Below are positions 2,982 through 52,426 of a DNA stretch of 58,077 nucleotides, piece by piece. This DNA comes from Merismopedia glauca CCAP 1448/3 (GTDB lineage: Bacteria; Cyanobacteriota; Cyanobacteriia; Cyanobacteriales; CCAP-1448). Position numbers and translations under genes: made by a program. Numbering within the stretch: position 1 is the stretch's first letter; every line of letters starts with the position of its first letter. Below the pieces are notes generated by a model. It was not told the DNA's origin and did not search any database. It saw only the letters and a list, made by a program, of their open reading frames with translations. The stretch is from contig NZ_PVWJ01000013.1 of assembly GCF_003003775.1 (NCBI RefSeq), forward strand, positions 1 to 58,077. Direction: 5' to 3'.

Positions 2982-3524
2982 TTAAACAGCCGCGATCGCC
3001 ACTTCAACCTTATTTTCTGGGAGCCGATCTAACTTAACCTGGACACCAGGACCAAAAAACTTTTCTAGCTTGTCGTGTTTTTGCTCCCAAACTTCAAAAG
3101 GGATGAAAGGAGAATCGAATTCTAGTACCAAAGTATATGCGCCATCGGTTTTAGTTTCCCGAATTCCAGTTAGTTTGGCTGCTTCCTGCTTATTTGGGGC
3201 TAAACCCAAACTTTTTAAAGAAGTATCTAAATGTGCGTCTTGTCCGTAACGATAACGAGTCACATCGCCGATAACTTGTTTTTGGGTAGTAGTCGCTTTT
3301 TGCTCTCTCAAAGCCAAAATTTCAGGGCTACTTTCTTGGGTAAACGGTATGGGTTTAAGTTCTGCACTTTTCAGCGCTAATCCGCCTAAAAGTAAGGGAA
3401 TACCGTAGAAAAAGCCAGCTAAGTTGAGGGTAGCATTATCATTAGCGTAAGCAATGAAACCAACCAGAGTCAAGACGGAGCCAACTACTAATCCGACGTT
3501 TGCTAAAGAAATTCGACGCAACAT
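2982..3524 (-). CDS. DUF2854 membrane-associated protein
   Basis: 180-aa protein of the DUF2854 family found in cyanobacteria and plant chloroplasts; the function is unknown to me. The start is the ATG at 3524 (MLRRISLANVGLVVG); longer in-frame readings upstream look non-coding. Two hydrophobic helices (about residues 6-26 and 33-50) are followed by a soluble domain of about 120 residues containing the conserved-looking stretch RYRYGQDAHLDTSLKSLGL. It is convergent with alaS and divergent from the small ORF at 3699. Confidence 0.85.
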   Translation of the reverse strand: MLRRISLANVGLVVGSVLTLVGFIAYANDNATLNLAGFFYGIPLLLGGLALKSAELKPIPFTQESSPEILALREQKATTTQKQVIGDVTRYRYGQDAHLDTSLKSLGLAPNKQEAAKLTGIRETKTDGAYTLVLEFDSPFIPFEVWEQKHDKLEKFFGPGVQVKLDRLPENKVEVAIAAV

Positions 3525-4082: not shown

Positions 4083-4126
4083 GTACAGACGTAGCACTGA
4101 GCGAAGTCGAAGTGCTACGTCTCTAC
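4083..4126. repeat. Degenerate copy of the GTAGAGACGTAGCA inverted repeat
   Basis: Arms GTACAGACGTAGCACT and AGTGCTACGTCTCTAC flank a 12-nt loop (gagcgaagtcga). It is the same family as the two perfect 29-bp palindromes at 50325 and 50931, and like them sits next to heptamer repeats. Confidence 0.6.
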
Positions 4127-4150
4127 TTCTGACTTCTGACTTCTGACTTC
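4125..4150. repeat. Heptanucleotide tandem repeat (ACTTCTG)3.7
   Basis: Three full ACTTCTG units plus ACTTC, ending 5 nt before the amylase ATG. It occupies the position where a ribosome binding site would be. Confidence 0.8.
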
Positions 4151-4155
4151 ATAAT

Positions 4156-5619
4156 ATGTCTATTCAAACACCAGATTGGGTAAAACACGCGGTTTTTTAT
4201 CAAATATTTCCAGATCGCTTTGCTATGAGCCAGAAACAGCAGCAGCAAAGATCGGCTTTAACTCGTTTAGAACCTTGGGATGCGCCACCTACCTACTGGG
4301 GGTATAAAGGTGGAGATTTGTGGGGTGTCATCGAGAATTTGGATTATTTGCAAGATTTGGGAATAAATGCAGTTTACTTTACCCCAATTTTCCAATCAGC
4401 TAGCAACCACCGCTACCACACTCACGATTACTATCAAGTAGATCCGATTTTAGGTGGGAATGAAGCTTTTAAAGCTTTATTAGATGCCGTTCACGAACGG
4501 GGTATGAAATTGGTCTTAGATGGGGTATTTAACCATAGCAGTCGCGGTTTTTTCTTCTTTCATGATGTTTTAGAAAATGGTGCAAGTTCCCCTTGGGTAG
4601 ATTGGTTCCACATCAAAGGTTGGCCCTTATCGCCCTATGATGATACATTGCCAGCTAATTACGGTGCTTGGGCTGGTTTGAGAGCCTTGCCCGAATTTAA
4701 CCATCATAATCCCCACGTTCGGGAATATTTAATGCAAATCGCTGAATATTGGATTAAGCAGGGGATAGATGGATGGAGGTTAGACGTACCTGCGGAAATT
4801 AGAGTACCTGGATTTTGGCAAGAATTTCGCGATCGCGTTAAAGCCATAAATCCCAATGCCTATATTGTGGGAGAAATCTGGCTAGATGCCAGACAATGGC
4901 TCGATGGGACTCAATTTGACGGGGTGATGAATTATTTATTTGCAGCGCCAACTATTGCCTTTACCGCAGGCGATCGCGTAGATGTATCGTTAGTAGAAGG
5001 GCGATCTTACTATCCTTATCCTGCTATTTCTGCTTCAGAATATGCCCAAAAAATGCAACAAGTTTTGCAACTTTACCCTTGGGAAATTCAATTAACCCAA
5101 CTCAATTTATTAGATAGTCATGATACATCCAGGTTAGTTAGTATCGCTCAAGGAGATTGGGATAGTCTCAAATTAGCGACTTTATTACTATTAACTTTTC
5201 CTGGTGCGCCTAGTATTTATTATGGGGATGAAGTCGGTTTAGCAGGTGGAATAGATCCAGATTGTCGGCGTGGTTTTCCACCTGAAGCCGATTGGAATTT
5301 AGAGATTTTAGAATGGCATCGAGAGTTAATTAAGCTGCGTCATAAATATACAGCTTTACGCATCGGAGATTATCGAGTTTTGTCTGCTAAAGGTGGGGTT
5401 TATGTATTTTCTCGAAACTGGGAAAATGAAACTTTAATAATTGCTATTAATGCTGGAACTGAACCAGAAAAAGCGAACTTTGAAGTTGAGGGTTTCGCAA
5501 GAAACAACTCAATTAATTTATTATTTGGTGAGGCAAAAGTAAAATTTGAAAATTCAGAAAATTCTCTTTCATTAGAAATAGATTTACTTCCTAGAAGCGG
5601 AGCGATACTATCCTTTTAG
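4156..5619 (+). CDS. GH13 alpha-amylase family glycosidase
   Basis: 487-aa enzyme hydrolysing alpha-glucosidic bonds, most like the cyclomaltodextrinase/neopullulanase side of family GH13. All four conserved regions are present: DGVFNH at 122-127, GWRLDV with nucleophile D210, GEIW with acid/base E240, and LLDSHD with transition-state stabiliser D323. No signal peptide is visible, so it probably acts in the cytoplasm on glycogen-derived dextrins. The start is the ATG at 4156, directly after a heptamer array; no Shine-Dalgarno sequence is visible. Convergent with the CAX gene at 5684. The exact substrate cannot be told from sequence. Confidence 0.93.
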   Translation: MSIQTPDWVKHAVFYQIFPDRFAMSQKQQQQRSALTRLEPWDAPPTYWGYKGGDLWGVIENLDYLQDLGINAVYFTPIFQSASNHRYHTHDYYQVDPILGGNEAFKALLDAVHERGMKLVLDGVFNHSSRGFFFFHDVLENGASSPWVDWFHIKGWPLSPYDDTLPANYGAWAGLRALPEFNHHNPHVREYLMQIAEYWIKQGIDGWRLDVPAEIRVPGFWQEFRDRVKAINPNAYIVGEIWLDARQWLDGTQFDGVMNYLFAAPTIAFTAGDRVDVSLVEGRSYYPYPAISASEYAQKMQQVLQLYPWEIQLTQLNLLDSHDTSRLVSIAQGDWDSLKLATLLLLTFPGAPSIYYGDEVGLAGGIDPDCRRGFPPEADWNLEILEWHRELIKLRHKYTALRIGDYRVLSAKGGVYVFSRNWENETLIIAINAGTEPEKANFEVEGFARNNSINLLFGEAKVKFENSENSLSLEIDLLPRSGAILSF

Positions 5620-17276: not shown

Positions 17277-17304
17277 GTAGGGGCGCAATGCATTGCGCCC
17301 CTAC
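17277..17304. repeat. Perfect 28-bp palindrome
   Basis: Perfect self-complementary sequence with 14-nt arms (GTAGGGGCGCAATG and its complement), between the convergent selO and esterase genes. It can form a strong hairpin without a loop-like centre and could stop transcription from both sides, but the absence of U-tracts and its repeat-like look favour a dispersed element. Confidence 0.8.
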
Positions 17305-17987: not shown

Positions 17988-18012
17988 AAGTCAGAAGTCA
18001 GAAGTCAGAAGT
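17988..18012. repeat. Heptanucleotide tandem repeat (AAGTCAG)3.5
   Basis: Three and a half AAGTCAG units spanning the trpD 3' end (supplying its last codons and TGA) and the spacer before the esterase ATG. Confidence 0.85.
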
Positions 18013-30011: not shown

Positions 30012-30035
30012 TTTGAAATCAGGAAGAAGGAAACG

Positions 30036-30060
30036 AAGTCAGAAGTCAGAAGTCAGAAGT
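30036..30060. repeat. Heptanucleotide tandem repeat (AAGTCAG)3.5
   Basis: Same unit and length as the array at 17988-18012, placed in the 5' leader of the YlqF gene. Confidence 0.85.
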
Positions 30061-49743: not shown

Positions 49744-50256
49744 TTGAGGGAAAAAAGTTTGAGCTTAAATCAGTCGTGGAAAAGCCTCAACGAAGAAGCA
49801 TACCTCCATCATTGTTCTTGGATGCAAGAAGCTCTATGTTTAGCTCAGACGGCGGGTGAAGCGGGGGAAATACCTGTAGGTGCAGTGATTATTGATGAGC
49901 GGGGAGAGGCGATCGCTACTGGGGAAAATCGCCGCCAACGAGACTGCGATCCTACTGCTCACGCGGAAATTATCGCGTTGCGAAATGCTGGTCAAGTTTT
50001 GGGAAGTTGGTATCTCAACAAATGCACTCTATATGTCACCCTAGAGCCTTGTCCCATGTGTGCTGGAGCGATTATTCAATCGCGCCTGGGATTGTTGGTC
50101 TACGGAGCTAATGAACCCAAAAGCGGAGCGATTCGGACAGTCCTCAACCTTCCAGACAGTGCTGCTTCTAATCACCGACTAGAAGTAATTAGCGGAATTT
50201 TGGAATCTGCTTGTCAAACCCAGTTACAAACTTGGTTTGCCAATCGCCGTTCGTGA
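49744..50256 (+). CDS. tadA: tRNA-specific adenosine deaminase
   Basis: 170-aa zinc deaminase making inosine at wobble position 34 of tRNA-Arg(ACG). Motifs: HAE (HAEIIALRNA) and PCPMCAGAI provide zinc ligands and the catalytic Glu. The start is uncertain: TTG at 49744 is used, a TTG at 49759 is possible, and only from MQEALCLAQ (ATG) is conservation strong. Essential in most bacteria. 49 nt downstream of the tRNA-Cys gene on the opposite strand. Confidence 0.93.
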   Translation: MREKSLSLNQSWKSLNEEAYLHHCSWMQEALCLAQTAGEAGEIPVGAVIIDERGEAIATGENRRQRDCDPTAHAEIIALRNAGQVLGSWYLNKCTLYVTLEPCPMCAGAIIQSRLGLLVYGANEPKSGAIRTVLNLPDSAASNHRLEVISGILESACQTQLQTWFANRRS

Positions 50257-50304: not shown

Positions 50305-50325
50305 ACTCCTGACTCCTGACTCCTG
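50305..50325. repeat. Heptanucleotide tandem repeat (ACTCCTG)3
   Basis: Three ACTCCTG units leading straight into the 29-bp palindrome at 50325. Confidence 0.75.
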
Positions 50326-50353
50326 TAGAGACGTAGCACTGCTACGTCTCTAC
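50325..50353. repeat. Perfect 29-bp palindrome, copy 1
   Basis: 14-bp arms GTAGAGACGTAGCA / TGCTACGTCTCTAC with a single C in the middle. Overlaps the last codons and stop of the SRPBCC gene. An identical copy lies at 50931-50959. Confidence 0.9.
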
Positions 50354-50803
50354 GTCTGACTCTTTGGCTTTAGCTAACAGAGCATAGTCTCTAAATCGGT
50401 TTAAATCGGCTTGAATGGTTGATTCGACAATCCGTCCTAAGAACAGATTATCCATGATTTGACCGAGGATACCAGGAATAGCATAACTAACCGTCAGTTT
50501 GACAATACTGCTAGTGTGGCGATCGTAGAATCTAATTGCTCCTCGATTGGGTAAACCGTCTACAGATTCCCATTGAATAATTTGATGGGGAATGATTTTG
50601 ACAATTCTGGACAGCCAACTGAATTCAAATGCTCCTGATGCGAGTTTCCATCGGGATAATTCGGGGTTTTCTGGAAGAATTTGGACTGATTTAATCCATT
50701 TCATCCACATCGGCATTTGTTCTAAGTCAGACCACAGACTCCAAACAAAGTCTATCGGGACTTCAACTTCTACTTGGACGGTATGTTCTAGCCAATCAGA
50801 CAT
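50342..50803 (-). CDS. SRPBCC (START-like) domain protein beside crtQ
   Basis: 153-aa protein with a SRPBCC ligand-binding fold: VEVEVPIDFVWSLWSDLEQMPMWMKWIKSV, and ILGQIMDNLFLGRIVESTIQADL. The homologue sits next to zeta-carotene desaturase in Synechocystis (slr0941 beside slr0940), so a role in carotenoid or lipid handling is likely but unproven. Downstream of crtQ on the same strand with a 144-nt gap. The C-terminal SDVET and TAG are read from the 29-bp palindrome. Confidence 0.85.
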   Translation of the reverse strand: MSDWLEHTVQVEVEVPIDFVWSLWSDLEQMPMWMKWIKSVQILPENPELSRWKLASGAFEFSWLSRIVKIIPHQIIQWESVDGLPNRGAIRFYDRHTSSIVKLTVSYAIPGILGQIMDNLFLGRIVESTIQADLNRFRDYALLAKAKESDVET

Positions 50804-50930
50804 TATGATTTAGCGTTGAGTTTAATGTATTGTGAGACGCGATCGCATAGTTGCCGCGAATGCGACACTGCCCGCTTTTATACCAGGGTAGTCGAAAAAT
50901 AAATAAGCTACTAGCAGTGCTACATCTACT

Positions 50931-50959
50931 GTAGAGACGTAGCACTGCTACGTCTCTAC
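50931..50959. repeat. Perfect 29-bp palindrome, copy 2
   Basis: Identical to 50325-50353; overlaps the 3' end of crtQ. A half-copy (CTAGCAGTGCTACATCTACT) is adjacent at 50911-50930. Confidence 0.9.
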
Positions 50960-52426
50960 GAATGACTTCTGACTTCGCTCAATAGTTTCGAGTTTTTCTC
51001 GTACTTCCAAGATAGCTTGAGCCGCTTGTTTTCCAGATCGGGTAGCTCCCTCCATACTATCGATATAATCTTGTTGGGTATAGCTACCAGCTAGGAAAAA
51101 GTTGTCAATGGGGGTTTTTTGATCTGGACGATATTTATCCATTCCTGGTGCTTCCCGATACAGAGATTGAGCCAATTTGACGACACTGTACCAAGTCATA
51201 TTCAAGTTGCGGGAAGATGGGAATAGCTGATGGACTTGTTTGAGAACGTGTTGGGCGATCGCTTCGTTGTTTTCTTTGATAAATGGGTCGCCTGGAGTCA
51301 ATACTAGTTGTAATAAAGATCCTTCCCCGTCTTTATAATAATTGCTAGGGCTAGTTAATGCTAGGTCGGCAAAACACGAGAAATCTGCATCCGCCGTATA
51401 TAGCAAATTATCAATCCCCGTCGCTTTTTTACCTTTCATGGCTTCGGGATTTTGCAGTTCTGTTACCCAGCCATCAAATCTTAGCTGGACTGTAGCTACC
51501 GGAACAGTATCTAGTTTATATATATTGTCGAACTGCGACCATTTGCGCCAATCTGCTGGGATGATTCGCTGAATTCCAGGAACATCGCCCGCAAAAACGT
51601 AAGCATCAGCAGTGACGATTTCTTCAGATTCACCTTTAGCTATGGCTAATCCAGTTACTTTAGTCTTGCTACCTTCACCAGTGTAGAGAATTTCTCTCAC
51701 GCGCCTGCGAGTATGAATTTTAGTTCCTCTCGCTTCCAAGTATTTTACAATCGGTTTGTGTAGGTATTCATCGGGGGAACCTTCTAACATCCGCAAGACA
51801 GAAGCTTCTGTTCTAGTAGCAAACATGAGAAAAATAGTCAGCATACAGCGAGCAGAGATGTTTTCCGTGTCGATGAATCCCAATGCATAGGCGATCGGGT
51901 TCCACATCCGTTTTAAGCTACCTTGCGAACCCCCATGACTGCGAAACCAATCGGCAAAACTTATTTTATCTAGTTCGCGAATCGTACTCATCGCACCGTC
52001 AAAGTCTATCAAACCGCGAACGATGGGACTAGTACCTAAAGCAAGAGCATTTTGAGCTTTGTCTAGCGTCGATAGCTGAGAAGTTGTAAAAAACGCCTTC
52101 AATCCGTTAAATGGCGCACCAGTCAAAAATCTGAAATCTAAAGCCCCTATTTTAGCGCCTTCGTTAATAAATGTATGAATGTGTTCTTTGAGTAGGAAGT
52201 GGGACATACCCCCAACCTTCTCCATTAACTTAAATAATTGGTAGTAGTTGCCGAAAAATACGTGCAAACCCATCTCTACGTGGTTACCATCTGCATCTAC
52301 CCAGCTACCAACTTTACCCCCAACAAAGGGACGAGATTCAAATATTTCGACTTCGCAACCTGCATCTACTAAATCTACCGCAGTTGCCATTCCAGCAAGT
52401 CCTGCACCTACAATTGCAACGCGCAT
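50948..52426 (-). CDS. crtQ: Zeta-carotene desaturase
   Basis: 492-aa FAD enzyme converting zeta-carotene to prolycopene on the way to carotenes. N-terminal Rossmann signature [40 protein letters not shown] (written in part), CrtQ/Zds hallmarks [23 protein letters not shown] and [27 protein letters not shown] (FAD-binding C-terminus). Start ATG at 52426. The C-terminal VET and TAG come from the 29-bp palindrome, so the last residues differ from relatives. Confidence 0.96.

Follow-up and report, generated by a model that had tools for sequence, protein, structure and literature searches.

The SDR repeats of Nostoc punctiforme and its relatives are reportedly very short hairpin repeats, which are said to occur frequently within heptameric tandem repeats or minitransposons. 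One SDR family, SDR5, is described in the accessible part of PMC4390886 as inserted in HIP1 sites, and the accessible part of PMC6513891 offers a citation only on SDRs. The GTAG-tagged REPs include cyanobacterial members and, in the accessible part of their description (Di Nocera, De Gregorio and Rocco 2013, PMC3733652), are found mostly downstream of genes, where the neighboring genes are either co-directional or convergent. Their termini "often provide" a TAG stop to flanking ORFs (PMC3733652). The same source, as far as accessible, describes the Rickettsia palindromic elements (RPE), which add codons to unrelated proteins, and places RPE-type repeats among CGTC-tagged sequences located within genes. 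Subclasses of RAYT have been reported in cyanobacteria (PMC6006769, accessible part). A literature search with the letters of the repeat analyzed here returned no cyanobacterial repeat by title among the matches listed.

The window, i.e. the whole stretch of 58,077 nucleotides of Merismopedia glauca CCAP 1448/3 that was analyzed, harbors two neighboring genes whose products share the ending VET: crtQ and a gene of the SRPBCC type. This ending is very probably the product of a dispersed hairpin repeat that favors the 3' ends of genes and was inserted in loose C-terminal tails. The original prediction of two identical 29-bp palindromes, each containing the stop codon of one of the two genes, was borne out: exact copies of GTAGAGACGTAGCACTGCTACGTCTCTAC are located at 50325-50353 and 50931-50959 with starts 606 bp apart, and both ORF ends fall in these copies. 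Allowing up to three mismatches, GTAGAGACGTAGCACTGCTACGTCTCTAC had two matches in the window compared to a mean of 0.00 over 100 shuffles. The relevant features are the following:

4083-4126: long-loop variant of the repeat, 44 bp, with 16-bp arms (one mismatch) and a 12-nt loop; a heptamer array adjoins; 29 bp before the ATG at 4156
49744-50256, plus strand: tadA
50306-50324: heptamer-type array CTCCTGACTCCTGACTCCT on the far side of copy 1
50325-50353: palindromic repeat copy 1, 29 bp; its minus-strand GTA GAG ACG TAG is the VET-stop of the SRPBCC gene
50342-50803, minus strand: SRPBCC / polyketide cyclase-like gene, 153 aa, ending SDVET; PF03364 (Polyketide_cyc) at residues 13-133
50912-50927: degenerate half copy beside copy 2, TAGCAGTGCTACATCT, 94% complementary to 50935-50950
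50931-50959: palindromic repeat copy 2, 29 bp, identical to copy 1; gives the VET-stop of crtQ
50948-52426, minus strand: crtQ, 9,9'-di-cis-zeta-carotene desaturase, 492 aa, ending SFVET; TIGR02732 over the full model length (1-474 of 474)
50960-50976: heptamer-type flank of copy 2, minus strand GAAGTCAGAAGTCATTC, the CrtQ tail codons directly before VET
50963-50976, minus strand: exact doubled heptamer GAAGTCAGAAGTCA within the flank of copy 2

Copy 1 sits between the convergent tadA and SRPBCC genes, and copy 2 separates crtQ from the SRPBCC gene, which runs in the same direction. The repeat supplies the last three amino acids and the stop of both crtQ and the SRPBCC gene. In crtQ the codons ahead of VET (S-Q-K-S-F) are heptamer-type sequence, and therefore more of the protein derives from repeat sequence than originally stated. 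The conserved domains of both proteins are complete; the SRPBCC product had no match in NCBIfam. The VET ending is likely to be without effect on either enzyme. A further palindrome of the form GTAG...CTAC, GTAGGGGCGCAATGCATTGCGCCCCTAC, whose stem differs, is present in the window at 17277-17304.

The ending follows from the reading frame in which a gene enters the repeat. From either end the repeat reads GTA GAG ACG TAG, and a gene entering in this frame ends in V-E-T-stop. The frame NNG TAG leads to an immediate stop, and the third frame has no stop within the repeat. In either orientation a TAG thus occurs within the first twelve bases in two of three frames, so that the stop is supplied by a copy located right at a gene end or shortly ahead of it. 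Among the copies whose surroundings were examined (the first-listed 62 of 79 found with the looser pattern described below), seven give the stop codon of an ORF encoding 90 aa or more. Four of these seven end as VET, namely the SRPBCC gene, crtQ, and the ORFs at L141 and L150. The L141 protein had its best match in the B12-binding radical SAM model TIGR03960, under the cut-off of the model, and the L150 protein, which is presumably a methyltransferase, had none in NCBIfam. The genes for KdsB (L132) and peptide deformylase (L157) stop with TCG-TAG, both ending SHS. In the sulfate adenylyltransferase gene (L133), ending DA, the first G of the repeat completes the TAG, which may be a native stop that shares a G with the repeat by chance. 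In a genome of the same family (G001), two of nine copies end three genes, two of them as VET; one copy (L192, 3001-3029) gives the stops of two convergent ORFs of 306 and 214 aa. In the two genomes together VET was found at six of ten copy-supplied gene ends and other endings at four. As the ending is a frame outcome across repeat-ended genes, VET is uninformative on the roles of crtQ and the SRPBCC gene.

Comparison of the C-terminal tails in relatives identifies the source of VET. Among relatives whose tails could be read, VET was the ending in none of 109 CrtQ and none of 99 SRPBCC proteins. CrtQ homologues ending in VET without the repeat, which would have spoken against the original proposal that VET derives from the repeat, were thus absent among these 109, and VET is therefore the footprint of the repeat. 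CrtQ tails were readable in 109 of 110 loci, and one check of CrtQ loci covered 29 of 30, L110 lying outside the pattern of the script. The SRPBCC sample derives from 101 of the 110 crtQ loci with a match, of which one was filtered out and 100 were aligned, including one (L063) without tail residues. These relatives are partly non-independent, as the same organism is represented from two collections (L025, L105, L193). VET is also possible by chance, since in one relative (L011) it occurs within the tail, away from the end, at a locus without GTAGAGACG. Beyond the conserved domain the tails of relatives differ in length and sequence. Past the SMEGA motif, CrtQ tails comprise 13 to 31 residues in the 109 relatives, and the 31 residues of the window CrtQ are equalled by only one of them. 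SRPBCC tails counted from the NRF motif mostly have 12 to 17 residues (median 14, up to 24); that of the window protein has 19, and eight relatives have longer ones. Tail length is 36 residues in the L141 protein compared to 19 to 33 in 13 relatives, and 16 in the L150 protein compared to 13 to 18 in 13 relatives, with no VET end among either set. The original prediction held that the repeat had replaced the native C-termini of functional genes. The ends are indeed repeat-derived now, but "replaced" was an overstatement, considering the variable tails of the relatives and the long tails in the window. With variable tails in relatives and intact conserved domains in the window proteins, the alignments appear to be better explained by a dispensable loose tail that was extended or overwritten than by the loss of a functional end.

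The repeat is dispersed throughout the genome (5.2 Mb, 254 contigs), as a genome-wide search suggested with the original prediction has established. Exact arms were found in 55 palindromes on many contigs, and 79 were found with three free bases per arm, whereas the pattern read backwards had no match in this genome. In 62 copies the arm types were TAG/CTA (49), TTG/CAA (11), TAG/TTA (1) and TTG/TAA (1). The looser pattern occurred in five of 60 genomes including this one (G000, 79 copies; G044, 14; the same-family G001, 9; G004, 2; G023, 1). Of 72 gene 3' ends facing a copy, 27 were no more than 20 bp away, compared to 208 of 2271 for random intergenic positions (p about 2e-10). As overlapping gene ends are impossible for random positions, the seven overlapping ends were removed in a recount, which left 20 of 65 within 20 bp (p about 1e-6). 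Divergent intergenic places held four of 57 copies (five of the 62, at the edges of stretches, were left out) compared to 487 of 2169 random positions (p 0.003). Avoidance of 5' ends was not significant (1 of 42 within 20 bp versus 245 of 2067 random positions, p 0.08). All of these p-values are rough, since the stretches holding the copies were sampled many times for random positions, and genes were called by a crude rule (longest ORF, 90 aa or more).

Many copies are associated with heptameric sequences or a minitransposon. In 18 of 50 TAG-type copies the match of the flanks to a heptamer pattern, (GAAGTCA)n, exceeded the 99% threshold set by shuffled flanks; the template was derived from the very flanks that were scored. 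The doubled heptamer GAAGTCAGAAGTCA had 391 overlapping matches genome-wide compared to none for the control. Within the window, (GAAGTCA)n arrays occur at 4130-4150, 17994-18007, 30035-30055 and 50963-50976. TTG-type copies are often housed by a minitransposon, which carried ATACCA...TGGTAT at both ends in four of seven cases among the matches listed. The position of the palindrome in the minitransposon is fixed, and the palindrome is of the TTG type or closely related to it; one copy of the minitransposon (L201) contains a TAG-type palindrome with one flanking C missing. A search of the genome with the flanks alone gave 16 matches compared to two for the pattern read backwards. Twelve of the 16 are minitransposon copies bearing the palindrome (L194, L195, L197 and L200-L208), with 163 of 168 arm pairs standard, and a further one (L199) has a degenerate palindrome below the strict pattern of the script. 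The remaining three (L196, L198 and L209) lack neighboring minitransposon sequence, look like chance matches and were rejected as minitransposon copies. Accordingly, all 13 copies hold the palindrome or a degenerate form, and no empty site was found by this route in the genome. A third, degenerate copy had been predicted at 4083, before a putative amylase gene. A repeat copy does exist there, but instead of being merely degenerate it belongs to a long-loop form, of which three further copies were seen (L177, L178 and L179); in these the same loop occurs in the other orientation or with one change.

These observations are consistent with a scenario in which copies arrived by insertion. Arrivals inside genes or at promoters would mostly have been purged by selection, while those in loosely constrained last codons would have survived; survival in the last codons of crtQ and the SRPBCC gene would have produced the VET ending. 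Insertion is inferred here because no empty site was found among relatives, for which 59 genomes were searched, none of the same genus, or among minitransposon copies. A possible mobilizing enzyme was sought among Y1-type transposases, and GTAGAGACG was absent from the fetched loci of all five PF01797 genes found. Two of these genes are RAYT-like, one at C20 (NF047646, 81.9 bits, cut-off 80) and one at C68 (72.8 bits, below the cut-off); neither had GTAGAGACG in the surrounding 6.3-kb stretches (L182 and L183), nor did the other three in loci of 2.7-3.4 kb. A RAYT may act on the repeat from a distance. The REP-associated tyrosine transposase gene at C20 (NF047646, L182, 2791-3363) has a perfect 16-bp inverted repeat close by (3412-3444), one arm of which contains the heptamer-like TGACTTCT. 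A link of this inverted repeat to the dispersed repeats is possible.

Several other explanations were considered for the palindromes at these gene ends. They might be kept there for their usefulness as transcription terminators or stabilizers of mRNA 3' ends. As single-stranded RNA, the window copies are predicted to form a strong hairpin with a 13-bp stem and a 3-nt loop (-22.2 kcal/mol, z about -5), and the preference for 3' ends together with the scarcity between divergent genes would suit such a role. However, this position bias is explained by selection against harmful insertions as well as by a function at 3' ends. Neither window copy shows the pattern of an intrinsic terminator: no T-run follows either palindrome, and the sole terminator-like site of the scan (50567-50591) is located inside the SRPBCC gene. 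Intrinsic termination was therefore rejected for both. Moreover, a terminator at copy 2 would part crtQ from the co-directional SRPBCC gene, a match to which lies within the fetched stretch in 101 of the 110 crtQ loci of relatives. A role as terminator or stabilizer is thus rather unlikely. A local origin of the window pair by duplication or gene conversion, instead of independent arrivals, could account for identical 29-bp cores only 606 bp apart and in the same frame, but the flanks of the two copies differ and the core is common to copies on many contigs. The spacing is also unsurprising, because random placement of 55 copies is expected to yield 0.35 pairs within 606 bp and at least one such pair with a probability of 0.29. 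Such a local origin is therefore considered quite improbable.

Selection could also have acted on the C-terminus VET or on the stop itself, as a functional tag or a reinforced stop. VET at six of ten copy-supplied ends in two genomes, and its occurrence in two neighbors, would agree with this. However, four of the ten end otherwise, and as two of three frames can stop, a ratio of six to four is frame chance; in addition, the nameable repeat-ended genes are functionally unrelated. For these reasons a targeting or degradation tag was rejected, and selection for VET or the stop is regarded as extremely unlikely. If four of 62 copies were VET copies at random, the chance that both members of a given pair are such copies would be 0.003, but this is a coincidence singled out post hoc. 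It is also very doubtful that the self-complementary repeat serves as an orientation-free stop cassette whose spread is tolerated or even favored for the clean closing of reading frames. Insertion of a dispersed repeat in loose tails thus remains the preferred reading. It makes crtQ a clear carotenoid-gene example of tiny dispersed repeats editing protein C-termini, and it implies that a common peptide ending of neighboring genes can be the footprint of a repeat and no sign of shared function.

Compared with the known systems, the window repeat is a REP/SDR-like dispersed palindrome without a named family, the nearest families being compared by description only. In the accessible part of their description, GTAG-tagged REPs are dispersed palindromes of 20-40 bp that start with GTAG, and the repeat studied here, with 29 bp and 55 to 79 copies on many contigs, is alike in this respect. 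Both are located mainly downstream of genes and rarely between divergent ones, and the supply of stop codons by the window repeat is, in its general form, the behavior published for GTAG-tagged REPs in that part. In contrast to the unpaired GTAG tag at one end of those REPs, the GTAG here is part of a perfect palindrome and pairs with CTAC in a stem predicted to begin at the first G. Furthermore, copies of those REPs adjoin a RAYT gene, whereas none was found here in the loci of the RAYT-like genes. RPE, as far as described in the same part, share the property of a palindromic repeat adding codons to unrelated proteins, but here the repeat stops the gene. The heptamer flanks and the minitransposon copies resemble what is reportedly seen for the SDRs of Nostoc punctiforme, a likeness of description only, and SDR families may be closer to the window repeat than the GTAG-tagged REPs.
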